IMG/VR virus record: IMGVR_UViG_3300047359_000133
Location: 1 to 20,362 of that record
Length of the DNA: 20,362 nt
Strand: one strand, 5' to 3'
Origin: a virus
Positions within the stretch are counted from its first letter, which is position 1. Every line of letters starts with the position of its first letter. Of the stretch, positions 1-13,716 are shown in pieces. Position numbers and translations under genes: made by a program. Below the pieces are notes generated by a model, which worked only from the letters and a program-made list of their open reading frames with translations, had not been told where the DNA came from and ran no database searches.

Positions 1-646
1 CGCGTATCTCTTCGATGCTCATAGTCTTGCCAACATACTTTTCGCAATGTTGTCGGGTCTTTGAGTCATCAGGCCCGAAATACTTAAACTCTGTGGCTCC
101 TGCCTCTAGTGACATATTGGTCGTGATGGTCCTATCGAAGTCCATCAGACCATCATTCAGTGCTACTTGCGCATAGCGTCCAAGGTCAGCGTCCACGCTC
201 TGCTGTATCTGCTCTACCGCCTGCGCGAATGGTAATCCGGTCAGCGTGTTCGCATACACCTGAGAAGCGACAGCCTCGACAAACTCTTCTCCTAGTGTCT
301 CAAGGCCACGAAATGACAACTGCTGTAACTGTCGCACTACCGACTCATCAAGCCTTGCAAGTGCTGTGTAGTTGCCAAGCATCAATTCTGCCTGTTGAGC
401 CACCACCGCGTAATCACGGATCATGTCGTCAATCTCTGTGAGATACTCTTCCTGCACGAATTGGCTGATCGTTGCGCGAGCGTTAACGGCCCACTCTAAA
501 TCGAACAAATCACCATCTCGTAACGGCGCACTGCCCATCAACTGCACGACACGCTGTGACAGTATGGCAAGCGCATTCTGCAATCTAAGCTCGTGCCTTT
601 TGGCGCGGTCGATTACATCTCTGGCGTGGTCAGTATCAGCCGCCAT
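1..646 (-). CDS. Minor head / head-morphogenesis protein (Mu gpF-like), partial at 3' end
   Basis: The frame is open from an ATG at 646 to the window edge, giving 215 visible residues starting MAADTDHARDVIDRAKRHE; the C-terminus is outside the window. The N-terminal half is helical and polar. Near the visible end is the segment GPDDSKTRQHCEKYVGKTM, which fits the D-x-x-T-R-x-x-C signature of the SPP1 gp7/Mu gpF head-morphogenesis family. Proteins of this family sit next to the portal and help assemble the procapsid. The start overlaps the portal stop by 11 nt, as expected for coupled translation. The position directly downstream of the portal agrees with the call. The family assignment is by motif and context only. 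Confidence 0.72.
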   Translation of the reverse strand, partial: MAADTDHARDVIDRAKRHELRLQNALAILSQRVVQLMGSAPLRDGDLFDLEWAVNARATISQFVQEEYLTEIDDMIRDYAVVAQQAELMLGNYTALARLDESVVRQLQQLSFRGLETLGEEFVEAVASQVYANTLTGLPFAQAVEQIQQSVDADLGRYAQVALNDGLMDFDRTITTNMSLEAGATEFKYFGPDDSKTRQHCEKYVGKTMSIEEIR

Positions 647-2144
647 CAGTTACCGTCTGCACTGGCTCGACGAGCGTATCGCCACCAGCGATGTCCTCCA
701 GCCCGATCTTCTCACGCACCTCGTTAGGCGTCACCATTCCACTATCGATGTGGTACTTGTAAATCTGCGTCTCTTTGGTGAAGTCACCGACCGCTGTAGT
801 GGCCTCTTCAATCTCCGCGTGTGCCTGTGCAAGCACTTGGTCATCAAGCACAAGGTCTGCGATCTGCTTATCAATCTCACGCAACAACGTAACTGACTTG
901 ACACCACTAGCACGGGTCTTCTGTAGAAACTCAAGCTCTGTCCCGTAATCACGAATGTCAAAGCTGTCAGGATAGCTGACCTCTACCTCGTGCAGATTGT
1001 GACCCTGCCACCGACACCACAACTCCCACAGCTGTTCTTCAGCAAGCTCGAGGATGTCGGCCTTCTCTGCTAGCTTGGCGTTTAGCATTTGGAACTCAGT
1101 CTGCATAGCCACGCCTGACTGCGTCATTGCCTCTGTGCCGCGTACTGCGCCCATGTGGGCCATACGATTGATCGAGTCGATCTTGTCCTCTATAGAGGCT
1201 CTAATGGCGTCTAGGTTAGCTCCAGACGGTTGCATCTGGTAAGGCTTTAATCCTGCGTCGATATCATCGCTGATGTTAATGACTGCACCAGCACCAGCAG
1301 TCGCGTCAGTGTCAAAGGTTTTAACGAGCGTCGGGTGGTTTGAGATGCGGATAAGCTGTTCGATTTCCGATAGCTCTTGGTAGATCGCTTGTTGCATATA
1401 GCTGATGTCAGAGATGTCGCTGATACCAATGCCGCGAACGATTGACCGGTTGGCCGGTATGTTGACCGCCGGTATCTTGCCGATAGGGTTGTCGATAGTC
1501 TCGACGGTGGTTGCCTCGTCACCGTGGTAACGAATGAGCTGAATTTGCTCTTTGGTCCAGATGCGAAAATACGTTTCTGTCGTCGTGCCGTCTATGCGGT
1601 TAACTGACTCGCGCACCTTCATGTAGGTCAACTCATGGCGACCGCTTGGCATTCGCTCATACTTCCAGTCGTAGACATTCTCTGGCGTGACCAGCGTGAC
1701 GTAGGGCCGTATCTCTTGATCTAACTCTTCGGCTCTAGTGCTTGCCGTCGACTGTGGCTTATCAAGCATGATCCATACGTGACCGTATACGCTCGACCAT
1801 ATCTGAGCTTCACGCATAAAGCTGTTGAAGTTCTGTCCGTCGAGGTTGGCGTCCTTGATGAATGCGATGAGGTCTGCACTACCTTCCATCTGCTGAAAGT
1901 TGCGAGTAGGCGGCTGACGCCATAGGAACGATGAATAAACGTGGACCACGTTGCGGCAGTGGTTGTCTAGCGGTGTAAGCGCCAAGCGCCGCGAGTATGC
2001 GTTCTTGTCCTCATTGAGGTAGCTGGTCAGGTAAGAACCATCGCGATAGTCTTGCCCGCCCATGTATGACCGAACATAAAACTCCCAGCGGTCCAGATTG
2101 TTTTCATAGTCGGGGTGCTGGTACTCAATATCTTCGTAATACAT
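636..2144 (-). CDS. Portal protein (DUF4055-type)
   Basis: 502 residues, a normal length for a portal. It lies directly downstream of the large terminase and upstream of the minor head gene, the standard head-module order. Recognisable pieces are the N-terminal YLTSYLNEDKNAYSRRLALT segment, the central SISDISYMQQAIYQELSEIEQL-type helix region (about residues 240 to 265), and a segment around residues 325 to 355 rich in MAQSGVAMQ-type residues. These match my memory of DUF4055 portal-like proteins. The portal forms the dodecameric DNA entry channel at one vertex and docks the terminase. The ATG at 2144 follows the terL stop with no gap, and an AGAGGTGG Shine-Dalgarno lies inside the end of terL. 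Confidence 0.85.
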   Translation of the reverse strand: MYYEDIEYQHPDYENNLDRWEFYVRSYMGGQDYRDGSYLTSYLNEDKNAYSRRLALTPLDNHCRNVVHVYSSFLWRQPPTRNFQQMEGSADLIAFIKDANLDGQNFNSFMREAQIWSSVYGHVWIMLDKPQSTASTRAEELDQEIRPYVTLVTPENVYDWKYERMPSGRHELTYMKVRESVNRIDGTTTETYFRIWTKEQIQLIRYHGDEATTVETIDNPIGKIPAVNIPANRSIVRGIGISDISDISYMQQAIYQELSEIEQLIRISNHPTLVKTFDTDATAGAGAVINISDDIDAGLKPYQMQPSGANLDAIRASIEDKIDSINRMAHMGAVRGTEAMTQSGVAMQTEFQMLNAKLAEKADILELAEEQLWELWCRWQGHNLHEVEVSYPDSFDIRDYGTELEFLQKTRASGVKSVTLLREIDKQIADLVLDDQVLAQAHAEIEEATTAVGDFTKETQIYKYHIDSGMVTPNEVREKIGLEDIAGGDTLVEPVQTVTDGG

Positions 2145-3356
2145 TTACGTCCACCTCTGCGGGGCTTGCGGCTTATTCACCTTTCGTATGGGAAACAGAT
2201 ATTCAACGGCATAGCCCAGTGCGTCATTCATGTGATCGAAGCCGTCCTTCTCTGGCTGACTGGTGCCTTCCTTGTAGGTGTGGCGTTCCAATGATTCGAT
2301 CACCTTCTTGCACTTAGGGTCTACAAACAAGCGCCGCTGACCATCTTTAGACAGTAGACGCGAGTTTACGCTGTTTATCCTATCTCTAACCGCCGCGTGT
2401 GATGACCTTACTTTCACATCAAATCCCGCGTTTTGCAGAATGGACAAATCCGTTCTACCCCCTGCGCTCGTTTTCCGTTGACGCGATGCAGGGTCAGGGT
2501 ATATGACTATTGTACCATTTCCGTAGCGTGTGCGAATCTCTGCGACCATCTCATCGGTGTTTGAGCCAAACATAACAATCTCATCGAATACGTGCAGTGT
2601 GTCGCCTTTGCGGGTCATCAGTACGGCAGACATCGGATCGAGGTTAAAGTCCATCCCGACATGGATGACAGGGTGTTCACCATCATGCCTAATTACTGAC
2701 TCTTCTCGCTTAAAGCCGTAGTAAATAATTCCACTGTAATTTACGAAGGCCGCGAGGTATTCCTGCTGAAATGTCCGTTCGTCTAAATCTGCTTTAGCTG
2801 ACTCAATTTCTGACGGTGGGACATTACCGCCCTCAACAGTTGTATATTGATGCGAACTCCAGCCAGCATCCTCATCTAGTCCTTTCGCCCATAGATCATA
2901 AAAGTGATTTCGTCCTTTTGGCGTGCCAATGAAAACGGCACTTCCCATTTTATCGGATAAAGACGGCCTGATTACCTCATACCATGCCTGTGGTTTCATA
3001 TCTGCAAACTCATCAAGCACAACGAAATCTAATGACCGCCCTCTTAAATTGTCAGGCTTTTCAGCACCTTTCAGTGAGATAGTTGATCCATTTAATAAGT
3101 AAATAGTAAGTGATGATTCATTCGTTTTTGCTATGTACTCACTAGGTATCTGCTCAATGAGCATTTCCCATGCAATTTCTTTTGCGGCTTTATATGTTGG
3201 AGCGACATACCATACGTTTTGGTCTTTTGCGGTTAGTGCGCGACTAAGTATCTCTGCTGTACTTAAAAAGGTTTTGCCGAATCGACGGCCAGCGACTATG
3301 ACACGGAAACGAGAGGAGTCGTCATATATTTTTGTCTGAGGTTTAGTTAGCTTCAT
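2145..3356 (-). CDS. terL: Terminase large subunit (ATPase-nuclease)
   Basis: 403 residues. This is the DNA-packaging motor: an N-terminal ATPase translocates DNA into the procapsid and a C-terminal RNase H-like nuclease cuts the concatemer. Visible motifs in order are Walker A AGRRFGKT (22-29), Walker B FVVLDEFA (111-118, with D115 and E116), and coupling motif FIGTPKG (142-148). The nuclease acidic residues appear in GMDFNLDP (D236), YPDPA (D288) and DHMNDALGYAV (D374, D378). All key residues are present, so the enzyme looks intact. The start ATG overlaps the end of the small-subunit gene by 14 nt. It is on the short side for a large terminase but complete. Confidence 0.95.
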   Translation of the reverse strand: MKLTKPQTKIYDDSSRFRVIVAGRRFGKTFLSTAEILSRALTAKDQNVWYVAPTYKAAKEIAWEMLIEQIPSEYIAKTNESSLTIYLLNGSTISLKGAEKPDNLRGRSLDFVVLDEFADMKPQAWYEVIRPSLSDKMGSAVFIGTPKGRNHFYDLWAKGLDEDAGWSSHQYTTVEGGNVPPSEIESAKADLDERTFQQEYLAAFVNYSGIIYYGFKREESVIRHDGEHPVIHVGMDFNLDPMSAVLMTRKGDTLHVFDEIVMFGSNTDEMVAEIRTRYGNGTIVIYPDPASRQRKTSAGGRTDLSILQNAGFDVKVRSSHAAVRDRINSVNSRLLSKDGQRRLFVDPKCKKVIESLERHTYKEGTSQPEKDGFDHMNDALGYAVEYLFPIRKVNKPQAPQRWT

Positions 3357-3699
3357 CGCGTGTAAGTTGTATTACTACAGGCGGTAAGTCTTGTGCTTCC
3401 GTTTCTGTTTCTTTCCACCCTGCCTGTGTCTTTAAGTAAAAGATTTGCGCTGTAGTGTTACCGTCTGTTGCGCTTCGTAACAAACTTTGACTCACTCGAC
3501 CTATTGCTCTTGCCCTGCCTTTTTTATAGGCGGCAGAAACCGATTCATCACGGGCGAAAATAGCACGAAGTGTTCGAGCTGGTATCCCCATATAATCGGC
3601 TATTTGATCTTGATTAAGTACAGCGGCTAGCGTTTCAAGTTCTGCTACTTGGCTGTCAGTAAGTTCTGTGCGCGGACGTCCTCCGCTGTTTTTAGCCAT
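3343..3699 (-). CDS. terS: Terminase small subunit
   Basis: 118 residues from the ATG at 3699. That ATG overlaps the stop of the Mom-like gene by 8 nt, which is why it is preferred over an in-frame ATG 17 codons upstream that would overlap by 59 nt. The N-terminus (MAKNSGGRPRTELTDSQ) followed by QIADYMGIPARTLRAIFARD is a helix-turn-helix that would bind the packaging site. It is followed by the region AYKKGRARAIGRVSQSLL and then TAQIFYLKTQAGWKET. The KTQAGW motif is common in this class of small terminases. It recognises phage DNA and recruits TerL, encoded immediately downstream. Confidence 0.85.
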   Translation of the reverse strand: MAKNSGGRPRTELTDSQVAELETLAAVLNQDQIADYMGIPARTLRAIFARDESVSAAYKKGRARAIGRVSQSLLRSATDGNTTAQIFYLKTQAGWKETETEAQDLPPVVIQLTRDEAN

Positions 3700-4381
3700 T
3701 AGGTTGGAGCGTACAGGTCGGAGTTGCACCGCCCAGACTAGGTTGGTCACCTAGCGCCTGCTCTTTTGTACGCTTAGGGTATGGCTTTGAAAGTTTTGCA
3801 ACGCGCTCTTTAACTTTATCATCAAGCGGCATTAAATAGCGATGCTTACTTAACTTAACTACGTCTTGCACCCATCCTTTTTCAATCCATTCGTTTAATG
3901 AGTACGGGCTATCACAAACCATTTGCATAAACGCTCTGTTAGTAAGGCGCTTGCCTTTATATGTCACCTCTGCATTTGCCGCCGTCTCACCTGCATAAAT
4001 CCAGTTTGTCGCTTGATAAATACCACCGTGATGGTTTTGAGACTTCGCCGCAAATGAAACTACAAGTTTAATATTAGGGTTAGACCGCTTCAAAAACTTC
4101 AGACTCAAAGCAAGCATTTTGCTTACAGGAGCCTTATGAGACTTGAGGGCAACGCGAGTTAGCTCCACGCATTCTGCCTGCGTCAGACTATAAGCCGTGC
4201 CTAAATGACGTGCTGTGCCTCGACTATAAATAATACAGCCTATGTATTTGCTGTCTTCCCACACACCAACTTTCACTAATTTGCCGATAGGTAAGCACTT
4301 GCTGTAGTGCCAATTCACACAAGCAAACTTAGCCGCCTCGTGACTAGCCCAATCTATTTTAAGCGTAGGCTTCTGTGACAC
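3692..4381 (-). CDS. Mom-like DNA modification protein
   Basis: 229 residues. The core (about residues 10 to 130) contains NWHYSKCLPIGKLVKVGVWE, YIGCIIYSRGTA, ECVELTRVAL, KMLALSLKFLK and the segment VVSFAAKSQNHHGGIYQATN. This pattern matches the GNAT-fold Mom family. Phage Mu Mom converts adenine in DNA to a carbamoylmethyl derivative and so blocks many restriction enzymes. The basic C-terminus (KLSKHRY, KRTKEQ) could bind DNA. The start is a GTG at 4381, with only a distant GGTGAG as possible ribosome site, and overlaps the upstream small ORF by 23 nt. The gene is followed directly by terminase, so modification would be expressed as DNA is packaged. Family membership is by motif memory; which substrate is made here is unknown. 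Confidence 0.78.
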   Translation of the reverse strand: MSQKPTLKIDWASHEAAKFACVNWHYSKCLPIGKLVKVGVWEDSKYIGCIIYSRGTARHLGTAYSLTQAECVELTRVALKSHKAPVSKMLALSLKFLKRSNPNIKLVVSFAAKSQNHHGGIYQATNWIYAGETAANAEVTYKGKRLTNRAFMQMVCDSPYSLNEWIEKGWVQDVVKLSKHRYLMPLDDKVKERVAKLSKPYPKRTKEQALGDQPSLGGATPTCTLQPNG

Positions 4382-4568
4382 TTTTTAATCGCTCACCAAA
4401 TTTATTTTTAACTGACTTAACCACTGACTCGATGCCCTTGTAATCAAGGTCTACTACTGTCATTTTTGTGCCGTCAAAAAGCTCAACTCTAAAAGCCTTA
4501 CTGCGTGCGCCACCTTCTTTAGCTTCAAAGCGATTGAGAATGTTTTTGTTTTTTGTTTCGTGATTCAT
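4359..4568 (-). CDS. Small unknown protein between ParB-like and Mom-like genes
   Basis: 69 residues, basic N-terminus, then the compact segment SKAFRVELFDGTKMTVVDLDY and a helix ESVVKSVKNKFGERLKS. I do not recognise the family. The start is well supported: ATG at 4568 with GGGAGG four bases upstream, and ATGA overlap with the ParB-like gene. Its 3' end overlaps the GTG start of the Mom-like gene by 23 nt. In phage Mu a similarly small ORF, com, overlaps mom and controls mom translation. This protein lacks the cysteines expected of Com, so only the layout is analogous. It may be a partner of the modification enzyme or a translational coupler. Confidence 0.75.
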   Translation of the reverse strand: MNHETKNKNILNRFEAKEGGARSKAFRVELFDGTKMTVVDLDYKGIESVVKSVKNKFGERLKSVTEAYA

Positions 4569-5080
4569 TCGACCTCCCTCAAATCAAACTGTTGTTGACA
4601 GTGCGGGCAAGTTACCCACTTAGGGTCTAACTCATCTAGCTGGCCTTGATCTTCTTCGCTTGCAGGCTCAAAGTCTACCTCATTAAGTAATAACGACAGT
4701 TCATCACTATCAAACCCTAATAGGTCAAGGTTGAAGTCGAACTCTTGCAACCGTTTCAACTCAGTAAACAGTGCTTCGTTATCCCAACCTGCGTTGAGTG
4801 CTAGTTTATTATCTGCGATGACGTAGGCTTTGCGTTGTGCCTCACTTAGCCCAATAAGCTCAATAGTAGGCACCGCCGGTAGCTTCAAACGCTTTGCCGC
4901 TAACAAGCGGCCATGTCCCGCAATAATGCTATTTTTTTCGTCGACAAGTATGGGGTTAGTAAATCCGAACTCCATAATGCTTGAGGCTATTTGTGCTACC
5001 TGTTCATCGCTGTGTGTGCGACTGTTCATAGCGTAGGGAAATAGGTCTTGAGTTAGCTTATAGCTGATAGATAGATTCAT
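4565..5080 (-). CDS. ParB-like N-terminal domain protein with CPHC tail
   Basis: 171 residues. The ParB/Srx-like domain covers about residues 8 to 110, with NSRTHSDEQVAQIASSIMEF (19-38), PILV, IIAGHGRLLAAKRL (52-65) and IADNKLALNAGWD (88-100). In place of the partition ParB GERR box it has GHGR, as in phage ParB-like proteins. There is no helix-turn-helix, so it should not bind parS by itself. The acidic C-terminal part ends in CPHC (158-161), half of a zinc site, which might be completed by dimerisation. In many phages such domains are fused to or sit beside DNA methyltransferases; here a Mom-like gene takes that place, suggesting a DNA-modification accessory. No clear ribosome site is seen; it starts 3 nt after the upstream stop. 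Confidence 0.85.
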   Translation of the reverse strand: MNLSISYKLTQDLFPYAMNSRTHSDEQVAQIASSIMEFGFTNPILVDEKNSIIAGHGRLLAAKRLKLPAVPTIELIGLSEAQRKAYVIADNKLALNAGWDNEALFTELKRLQEFDFNLDLLGFDSDELSLLLNEVDFEPASEEDQGQLDELDPKWVTCPHCQQQFDLREVE

Positions 5081-5083
5081 AGT

Positions 5084-5284
5084 TTATAAAGGTGACGGTA
5101 TACCTTCGGCCCAGTATAGGCCATGTGTTTGCCCGTCTTTCACTTCTCCGCGTTTTATGTCTTGGTGTGACATTGGATAGGTTTCTACTGCGCCATCATC
5201 AAATGCGACGAGGTAGTCACCTTCATTTTTCGGCATACCGCCAACCTCGACAGGATGCCATGCTATCGTTACGGTTTGCAACAT
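5084..5284 (-). CDS. Small unknown protein, first gene of the late unit
   Basis: 66 residues from the ATG at 5284 (MLQTVTIAWHPVEVGG...). This start has AGGGGA six bases upstream. An upstream in-frame ATG at 5302 would lie within or before the predicted transcription start of the promoter at 5303-5311, so the shorter start is preferred. The segments PKNEGDYLVAFDDGAVETYP and HGLYWAEGIPSP resemble the small DUF551-like phage proteins, but the match is loose. It is followed 3 nt later by the ParB-like gene. Function unknown. Confidence 0.65.
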   Translation of the reverse strand: MLQTVTIAWHPVEVGGMPKNEGDYLVAFDDGAVETYPMSHQDIKRGEVKDGQTHGLYWAEGIPSPL

Positions 5285-5302
5285 ATAGTGTCCCCTGCTC
5301 AT

Positions 5303-5311
5303 ATTATACCA
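5303..5311 (-). promoter_or_regulatory. Extended -10 promoter of the late (modification-packaging-head) unit
   Basis: On the minus strand the sequence reads TGGTATAAT: a perfect TATAAT (5308 to 5303) preceded by the TGn of an extended -10 element. No good -35 box is present at 16-18 bp. Transcription would start near 5296, leaving a leader of about 12 nt before the ATG at 5284. It lies just downstream of a terminator, which marks a new transcription unit. Confidence 0.6.
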
Positions 5312-5336
5312 ATATATGCTAAAAAGGTGCGGACAA

Positions 5337-5353
5337 TAAATAACGCTTATTTA
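5337..5353. promoter_or_regulatory. Palindrome TAAATAA-CGC-TTATTTA upstream of the late promoter
   Basis: Perfect 7-bp inverted repeat with a 3-bp centre, centred about 49 bp upstream of the predicted start at 5296. The same arms occur at 6344-6361 upstream of another promoter. The place relative to a promoter lacking a -35 box suggests an activator site, but an AT-rich UP-like element is possible. Confidence 0.5.
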
Positions 5354-5375
5354 ATATCCGGCATATCACAGGCAT

Positions 5376-5398
5376 AAAAAAGCCCGCACTCGGCGGGC
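5376..5398 (-). terminator. Rho-independent terminator ending the middle unit
   Basis: On the minus strand a GC-only 6-bp stem (GCCCGC/GCGGGC, 5398-5393 with 5387-5382) and a 5-nt loop are followed by six T (5381-5376). It lies 25 bp after the stop of the last gene of the middle unit and 65 bp before the late promoter. Confidence 0.9.
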
Positions 5399-5423
5399 AA
5401 GGGGTTTCTCACGCCCAAGGAAG

Positions 5424-5603
5424 CTAAACATCGTAACGGATAATCTCTAGGGGTGGCTCGTCATTTTCTTTAAGTTTAACCACCCTAAAGTCTTTGAGTA
5501 TGGCGACGTCTTCTCGCCATCTTTTAGCCATTGTCTCTGCGGCCCTTAATGCGATGATCCAGTCTTCTATGTCCTCATTCGTCAGCGAGACAAGTCTTTT
5601 CAT
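5424..5603 (-). CDS. Small unknown protein, last gene of the middle unit
   Basis: 59 residues from the ATG at 5603 (MKRLVSLTNEDIEDWIIALR...), which has GAGG five bases upstream. A second candidate start at 5639 (AAGGA, five bases upstream) would add 12 residues but lengthen the overlap with the membrane-protein gene from 29 to 65 nt. The protein is a helical segment EDIEDWIIALRAAETMAKRWRED followed by a short strand region. Not recognised. A terminator follows. Confidence 0.55.
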   Translation of the reverse strand: MKRLVSLTNEDIEDWIIALRAAETMAKRWREDVAILKDFRVVKLKENDEPPLEIIRYDV

Positions 5604-5784
5604 AAATTCCTCGCCAGTCAGGATGCCCGTCTTTGCCATTTGTCCTTTCCCACAATTCAACGAATTCGCAGTAAATGTCTTGCTGACTGACGGCTTCTTC
5701 GTAATCACCTTGCCCCGCTACCCCGAATGCTATCACTACTAGTAAAAAAATCACTGCGTATTTTATGTTCGGATTCAAGTGCAT
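5575..5784 (-). CDS. Small single-pass membrane protein
   Basis: 69 residues. Residues 9 to 24 (YAVIFLLVVIAFGVAG) form a membrane anchor or signal segment. The remainder, with DYEEAVSQQDIYCEFVELW and HPDWRGIYEKTC, carries two cysteines and would be periplasmic. The pattern of a short TM, a D-Y-x-x-A helix, then YC-x-x-V and a W/HPD-W segment recurs in small phage and bacterial proteins of unknown role. The start has AAGGGG seven bases upstream. It overlaps the sigma-like gene by 80 nt and the next gene by 29 nt, which is unusual even for a compact phage. Confidence 0.65.
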   Translation of the reverse strand: MHLNPNIKYAVIFLLVVIAFGVAGQGDYEEAVSQQDIYCEFVELWERTNGKDGHPDWRGIYEKTCLADE

Positions 5785-5929
5785 CGTAGTACCCCTTTAA
5801 TTTTGGATCTTTACTTAGTTTTTTTAAGGCTTTAATTTCGATCGTTCTAATTGTTTGACGGCTGACACCCATGACATCCGCAATTTCTTGATGTGTCATG
5901 TGATAAGTAAAATCAAGCGCCCTAGGCAT
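5705..5929 (-). CDS. Stand-alone sigma-70 region-4-like DNA-binding protein
   Basis: 74 residues from the ATG at 5929, which overlaps the preceding gene's stop by 8 nt. Residues 11 to 38 (MTHQEIADVMGVSRQT then IRTIEIKALKKL) closely follow the helix-turn-helix of sigma-70 region 4, which contacts the -35 box. Regions 1 to 3 are absent, so it cannot be a complete sigma factor. Phage proteins of this kind can appropriate host RNA polymerase or act as co-activators. It is encoded shortly before the late promoter, which has an extended -10 but no -35, so it is a reasonable candidate late regulator. The C-terminal 25 residues overlap the next gene and look unconserved. Confidence 0.75.
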   Translation of the reverse strand: MPRALDFTYHMTHQEIADVMGVSRQTIRTIEIKALKKLSKDPKLKGYYDALESEHKIRSDFFTSSDSIRGSGAR

Positions 5930-12824: not shown

Positions 12825-12980
12825 ATGTTTGGTTACACAATCATCGGTAGAGACGGATGCGAAGCGTACACCTCTGAGCCTGAGTATGAGACATATCAAG
12901 AGGCGTATAAAGCTGGCGATCACGCCCTGTGCGACATGAACGAAGGGTCGCTAGAAGTTTGGGAAGAAGACTATCCGTAG
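12825..12980 (+). CDS. Unknown small acidic protein 3
   Basis: 51 residues, starting at an ATG one base after the previous stop (12821-12823) and so probably coupled to it; it has no ribosome site of its own. The chain (MFGYTIIGRDGCEAY, YETYQEAYKAGDHALCDMNE, GSLEVWEEDYP) is strongly acidic at the C-terminus. Its final 10 nt overlap the end of the endolysin gene on the other strand. Function unknown; acidity and size fit a DNA mimic or inhibitor, which is speculation. Confidence 0.65.
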   Translation: MFGYTIIGRDGCEAYTSEPEYETYQEAYKAGDHALCDMNEGSLEVWEEDYP

Positions 12981-13318
12981 GTCCACATTACAGGTGTGGT
13001 TGCGCGCATATCGACATGGACGAATGAGCGAGCCACGCCTATCCCACCAAATCCCATGTTCAGGGCTTCTTTAACAATCCGCATTCTATCAACGCCATTC
13101 GATACGGCGATGTCACAAGCGATTCCCTGTGTGTGTGTGCCGCCTTTTTCTTTGTTGCGCTCTGCTGTGTGTTCTTTTGAGCGATACCCTGACGTAATGA
13201 CCATTGGCTGACCAACACGCTCACGTAGCTCATCTAGCATATGGATGAACTCAGGCTTCATGTCACTCTCGCCAGTCTCACGACAGCGAAACTCGCTGAT
13301 ATCAAAATGCTTATACAT
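12971..13318 (-). CDS. Endolysin, M15-type peptidase
   Basis: 115 residues from the ATG at 13318, which shares one base with the holin stop. ITSGYRSKEH (41-50), THTQGIACDI (H62, D69) and FVHVDMR (H101, D103) are the metal-binding signature of the M15 D-Ala-D-Ala peptidase/endolysin family, which cuts the peptide cross-links of peptidoglycan at lysis. No signal peptide is seen, so release depends on the holin encoded just upstream. It is a single catalytic domain without a cell-wall binding domain, as usual for Gram-negative phages. A TTG one codon earlier is a possible alternative start. Confidence 0.9.
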   Translation of the reverse strand: MYKHFDISEFRCRETGESDMKPEFIHMLDELRERVGQPMVITSGYRSKEHTAERNKEKGGTHTQGIACDIAVSNGVDRMRIVKEALNMGFGGIGVARSFVHVDMRATTPVMWTYG

Positions 13319-13716
13319 CAATTTTCTCTCGATACACCTTTGGTTTTTTCGTAGCTACGCATTGCGCCCAATCCTAACATACCCATTAGTACCGGCATCA
13401 TTGTCTCAAGGTCAATTAGTGGGATGGTCACTTCAATAGCCAGCAGAGCCAGAACAAAGTTAGTAAACGGTATTACCATAAAGTTGCCGGTCATGCCTAG
13501 AACACAGCACCAACCTACAGCAGGACGCCATCCAGATACAAACAATGACTTATGTGCCGCCTCTACCTTGTTGACCTCAAGCTGTGCCTTTGCGAGTTCC
13601 TGCGCGTGGCGCTCTGCCATCGTGCTTAACTCGTGAGCTATGCGAGCCTTCTGGTCTTTGTCCTCAATAAACTTATCAAGCAAGCCAGCGACTGGTCCTA
13701 TCAATGATTCGATCAT
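13318..13716 (-). CDS. Holin, GTA-type 3-TM family
   Basis: 132 residues. Residues 15 to 55 form a charged amphipathic helix (AERHAQELAKAQLEVNKVEA). Then comes the family signature SGWRPAVGWCCVLGMTG (61-77), further membrane segments at about 78 to 97 and 104 to 118, and the terminal GMLGLGAMRSYEKTKGV (112-128). This G-W-R-P...Y-E-K-x-K-G-V pattern is that of the 3-TM holins used by gene transfer agents and phages. The holin opens the inner membrane so that the endolysin (next gene, 1-nt overlap) can reach the wall. Confidence 0.9.
   Translation of the reverse strand: MIESLIGPVAGLLDKFIEDKDQKARIAHELSTMAERHAQELAKAQLEVNKVEAAHKSLFVSGWRPAVGWCCVLGMTGNFMVIPFTNFVLALLAIEVTIPLIDLETMMPVLMGMLGLGAMRSYEKTKGVSREN

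Follow-up and report, generated by a model that had tools for sequence, protein, structure and literature searches.

A stand-alone sigma-70 region 4.2-type protein as a probable activator of a conserved late promoter in uncultivated phages

In phage lambda, the Q gene lies at the end of the delayed-early operon and its product acts at a single late promoter, pR'. At the MotA/AsiA-dependent middle promoters of phage T4, a phage-specific box replaces the -35 element upstream of a host-type -10, which is often accompanied by TGn (PMC2988021). A further T4 protein, gp33, does not resemble sigma in sequence; it binds the flap of the polymerase and does not recognize DNA (PMC2988020). The late-gene switches of uncultivated phages have been little studied. 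Here we describe a compact protein and promoter pair in a 20,362-nucleotide stretch of viral DNA (the whole of which is referred to as the window), and we consider it probable, on the basis of sequence comparisons, that its 74-residue protein is a dedicated late-gene activator that binds a conserved dyad and recruits the host polymerase.

A first-pass annotation of the window had described this protein as consisting essentially of a sigma-70 region 4 helix-turn-helix. The description holds, specifically for the region 4.2 half: the Pfam family Sigma70_r4 (PF04545) is matched with E = 3e-10 and 39.9 bits, against a cut-off of 24.1 bits, and the match is confined to profile positions 17–49 of 50. 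Judged from its sequence, the protein corresponds to the half of the domain by which sigma reads the -35 element, the region 4.2 helix-turn-helix, and most of region 4.1 is missing. When 21 relatives were combined into a profile, sigma region 4 chains of the PDB were matched at 8.6e-10, in an alignment extending to about residue 49, close to the sigma C-terminus. The predicted model has helices at residues 13–20, 24–40 and 45–58 and none before residue 13, and a second structure, predicted from a broader alignment, was similar and no better, again with no helix before residue 13. Foldseek returned no match to the model at E < 0.001, the model being too small to be informative, and VIA-align gave Z of at most 3.6, which is uninformative at such a small size. 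A LuxR/GerE helix-turn-helix was considered and rejected as a resemblance in fold only (GerE Pfam E = 0.15, 12.1 bits versus a cut-off of 23.5 bits). The predicted pI of the protein is 9.4. Judging from codon substitutions, the activator gene is under purifying selection; dN/dS among the relatives is mostly 0.04–0.17, with many synonymous distances near saturation.

The positions of the promoter elements and of the neighboring genes are collected in Table 1. On the minus strand, the stretch that follows the terminator reads ATTAAATAAGCGTTATTTATTGTCCGCACCTTTTTAGCATATATTGGTATAATATG and leads into AGGGGA, the ribosome site, and then the ATG at 5284. The first-pass annotation had noted an extended -10 without a -35 within 400 bp downstream of the protein, as well as a palindrome upstream of that promoter, and both were found as described. 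TATAAT occupies 5308–5303 and is preceded by TGG at 5311–5309; the activator gene ends 397 bp before the extended -10, with two small genes and the terminator in between. The transcript is expected, from the sequence, to start at about 5296, some 12 nt before the late gene. The -10 on its own is not significant, because TGNTATAAT occurs twice in the window compared to 0.71 occurrences expected by chance. A -35 element was sought at spacers of 15–19 in 38 distinct promoters, and the best match to TTGACA reached 3 of 6 positions. The palindrome differs by one mismatch from the dyad consensus, AATAAATA-N5-TATTTATT, and no other site in the window has fewer than three mismatches; by chance, 0.13 sites with three or fewer would be expected. 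The palindrome is followed by the TGTCCGCA box, ahead of the spacer. The functional case for this promoter block rests on conservation and not on the single sequence.

Table 1. Features of the late promoter region and adjoining genes in the window
Feature	Position	Strand	Remarks
Sigma-70 region 4.2 helix-turn-helix protein, stand-alone, 74 aa	5705..5929	-	Pfam and models; proposed late activator
69-aa membrane-type small protein, phrog_6168, overlaps activator gene	5575..5784	-	syntenic in 48/48 loci tested
71-aa protein, last gene ahead of terminator	5424..5639	-	similarity in 48/48 loci tested; shortened in some
Intrinsic terminator GCCCGCCGAGTGCGGGC then TTTTTT, between activator operon and late promoter	5382..5398	-	
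Dyad operator ATTAAATA-AGCGT-TATTTATT, -59 to -39	5335..5355	-	
Conserved box TTGTCCGCA, -40 to -32, at and just upstream of -35 position	5328..5336	-	no TTGACA match at normal spacing
8-nt spacer, sequence variable, length constant (7 nt in L008)	5320..5327	-	
Conserved GCATATATTGGTATAATATG containing extended -10 TGGTATAAT	5300..5319	-	
First late-operon gene, 66 aa if ATG 5284 is the start, AGGGGA ahead	5084..5284	-	
ParB-like protein, late operon	4565..5080	-	
Mom-family DNA modification protein, late operon	3692..4381	-	
Putative small terminase, precedes large terminase	3343-3750		named by inspection
Large terminase	2145..3356	-	
Putative portal, after large terminase	636-2144		named by inspection

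The block recurs among IMG/VR relatives, where a search with the protein returned 24 loci. DNA-only scans with either the operator half or the -10 half of the block recovered the two together: the operator-only scan with TTATTTATTGTCCGCA gave 66 stretches, of which the majority contain the whole block and many encode a diverged protein upstream, and the scan with the -10 half only gave 52 matches. A scan with the -10 and the ribosome site, in which the box was not used, matched 59 contigs. The operator is present in 57 of these (56 by an exact test, plus L178 with a variant box), and the activator protein is encoded in all 48 that have at least 760 bp of upstream sequence. Among 37 distinct operator sequences the right arm is conserved in every one and the left arm is mostly AATAAATA or ATTAAATA; the arms are conserved while the five central bases vary. 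Two subfamilies, A and B, can be compared, the proteins of subfamily B having 28–40% identity to that of the window. Between them the operator is 85% and the -10 box 98% identical, whereas the upstream flank has 31% identity and the 8-nt spacer 51%; the TGTCCGCA box is 100% identical, partly by construction because it belonged to one selection pattern. Synonymous sites of the activator gene are near saturation already within subfamily A. A shift of recognition-helix residues along with the operator between the two subfamilies was sought in the alignment and not seen. The window and four block-carrying records that were scanned whole contain one operator per genome.

These sequence counts make the association between protein and promoter considerably stronger than adjacency alone, in support of the link that the first-pass annotation had drawn; its further suggestion of a protein that replaces or bridges the -35 contact is supported in part, the DNA-reading 4.2 half being present and the 4.1 half missing. 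The co-occurrence is not specific to the regulator, because the 69-aa and 71-aa neighbors are likewise present in 48 of 48 loci, and synteny alone could lie behind the association. Of the genes checked beside the promoter, only that of the sigma-like protein encodes a recognized DNA-binding protein.

A dyad at fixed spacing upstream of an extended -10 that lacks a -35 has the geometry of an activator-dependent promoter, and the conservation of this dyad at -59 to -39 argues for a DNA-bound, probably dimeric activator. In the mechanism we propose, a probable dimer of the region 4.2-type helix-turn-helix would occupy the dyad at -59 to -39, its reach possibly including the TGTCCGCA box, and the bound protein would recruit host RNA polymerase to a promoter without a usable -35. 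The extended -10 would be read by the polymerase's own sigma, and the packaging and structural operon would thereby be switched on. DNA binding, dimer formation, activation and the polymerase surface contacted are all steps that we infer.

The extended -10 might instead fire with host polymerase alone, with the protein serving as a repressor or delay factor or acting elsewhere and the dyad belonging to another regulator. A perfect TGGTATAAT could suffice for such firing, the promoter occurs without the dyad in L013 and L014, and the adjoining 69-aa and 71-aa genes co-occur equally. We regard this as unlikely, as the dyad precedes the polymerase core site at a fixed spacing, which is the usual geometry of activators, no other recognized DNA-binding gene is constant in the block, and the operator occurs once per genome tested.

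The position of the conserved box at -40 to -32 would permit a contact with the -35 region, made through this non-consensus element by the 74-residue protein or by a remodelled sigma. The first-pass annotation had proposed a protein that bridges or replaces the -35 contact; the box speaks for this proposal, and the absence of the flap-holding 4.1 half speaks against it. One form of it would be a split recognition, the extended -10 being read by host sigma-70 and the -35 region by a free phage sigma 4.2 fragment, through the box, the dyad or both. We consider such an arrangement conceivable and rather improbable; if it were true, a detached sigma domain would have been turned into a dedicated activator. 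Displacement of host sigma region 4 from the beta-flap, giving a composite sigma for which the -40 to -32 box would be a new -35, appears quite unlikely. It would agree with a protein sequence that corresponds to sigma 4.2 almost to the sigma C-terminus, with a conserved box in the -35 region, and with the residue aligned to E. coli E585, which is Q, H, V or T and never E in the family alignment and would fit an altered choice of DNA. However, the flap-contacting region 4.1 is absent, with a profile match that starts at position 17 and no helix before residue 13, the upstream dyad would need a separate explanation, and no region 2 partner was found in a search with a positive control. The anatomy of the 74-residue protein does not support a replacement of sigma region 4 on the polymerase. 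The search for a split sigma with a region 2 partner (PF04542) covered 16 records, many of them incomplete, and found none, with the control positive in 11 of 14 genomes; PF00940, for a phage RNA polymerase, had no match, but its control gave none either.

The activator gene encodes a small, basic product and stands at the end of the early cluster, immediately ahead of the late promoter, and the terminator ahead of the promoter is retained in relatives. This is also the genomic position of Q, at the end of the delayed-early operon and just ahead of the late promoter, and the protein could accordingly be imagined as a lambda Q-like antiterminator on transcripts from that promoter. We find this highly improbable: no Q Pfam family was matched at E up to 1, the terminator precedes the promoter, and the late gene starts about 12 nt past the expected start. 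The conserved block might also have no regulatory role and serve as a signal for packaging or replication (pac/cos), in keeping with its location a few genes ahead of terminase. Such a signal is very hard to reconcile with the fixed distance of the block to the extended -10, the ribosome site and the start codon, or with the variation of the genes between the block and terminase.

Several other features of the region were observed. The Mom-family protein (3692–4381) lies close to the ParB-like protein within the late operon of this uncultivated phage, and a probable peptidase M15-type endolysin was recognized by inspection at 12971–13321 on the minus strand. The 71-aa gene is shortened in L002, L011, L013 and L016, where it is followed by a 65–66 aa open reading frame starting VKLTYKQVSDAAQ, a possible helix-turn-helix.

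Some members of the family depart from the common arrangement. In L013 and L014 the protein is intact and the extended -10 is kept, and the dyad is not present; ambiguous bases occur nearby in these contigs. L013 and L014 (L176, L177) constitute a natural promoter variant in which TGGTATAAT is kept and both dyad and box are missing. L022 and L023 keep the helix-turn-helix and have a different late module and no promoter block; by inspection, TTGAGA-17-TAAAAT stands just ahead of their late gene and may be an ordinary promoter. Their activator gene (L022:446-664 and L023:1636-1854) looks recombined, with a first half like subfamily A and a second half that, together with the late module, resembles another group (L157-L161, L166). 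A second conserved promoter, TTTTGTTATAAT (or TTTTGCTATAAT, TTTTGATATAAT), was observed about 570–800 bp upstream of the activator gene in L003, L005, L013, L016 and L019, with an extended -10, no obvious -35 and no dyad. The missing -35 alone is thus no sign of an activator, because in relatives without the dyad extended -10 promoters with no obvious -35 also precede the regulator.

More distantly related members of the protein family stand beside other promoters or have none visible nearby. The homologues in L114-L125, L148-L156 and similar contigs belong to phages that by inspection have a T7-like primase-helicase gene, and a conserved TATATAGTCTATACAGTAAGTACTA stretch lies downstream of their extended -10 promoter. 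In these phages with T7-like replication genes an extended -10, TGTGGTATACT or TGTGGTACAAT, lies 65–74 bp after the homologue gene, in some together with a fair -35 (e.g. TTGGCA at 18 bp), and the operator is not common to them. The link of the family to extended -10 promoters may be wider, because these distant members also precede one. In L111, L112, L126 and L167 the homologue closes its run of genes, and convergent genes on the opposite strand come next. The operator was looked for in these and other distant relatives, where weak box matches inside G001/G002 structural genes were judged to be chance occurrences.

Outside the uncultivated viruses, a collection of annotated phage records yielded ordinary sigma factors and short weak matches and no clear homologue of the activator; no clear homologue was found either in isolated pelagiphages, in which the nearest large terminase occurs (about 53% identical), and bacterial genome contigs gave a single short match. 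The compact protein and promoter pair thus recurs in dozens of contigs without a clear homologue in the phage records searched, and it would illustrate the reuse of a sigma factor domain as a free activator.

Among described systems, the sigma appropriation of T4 is, by analogy, the closest mechanistic parallel. The MotA box is centered at -30 and AsiA is needed, whereas here a dyad centered near -49 is combined with a box at -40 to -32, and the MotA family is not among the Pfam matches of the 74-residue protein. T4 gp33, which acts with gp55 and has a clamp-binding C-terminus, is likewise a small phage protein that takes over a function of sigma region 4, at late promoters that lack a -35. 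The likeness to phage late co-activators of this kind, which had been suggested earlier, is weak: gp33 is a flap-binding protein without DNA recognition (PMC2988020), and the anatomy appears to be reversed here, with a protein that by its sequence is a DNA-binding helix-turn-helix. Lambda Q shares the genomic position and the targeting of one late promoter; it has no homology to the 74-residue protein, and the arrangement here suggests control of initiation, not antitermination. The RinA/Ltr regulators of phages of Gram-positive bacteria are similar in position, as small basic proteins encoded at the end of the early cluster and upstream of the late promoter, but they have about 130 residues compared to 74 here and belong to a different phage lineage, and no match to the NCBIfam RinA or ArpU models was found at E up to 0.01. 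RinA/Ltr proteins activate late genes through upstream DNA, with which the dyad at -59 to -39 would be consistent; unlike the RinA/Ltr sequence family, the regulator described here has a plain sigma region 4.2 identity. The 74-residue protein is most likely to be placed among the phage late activators, as a variant with sigma 4.2 identity.
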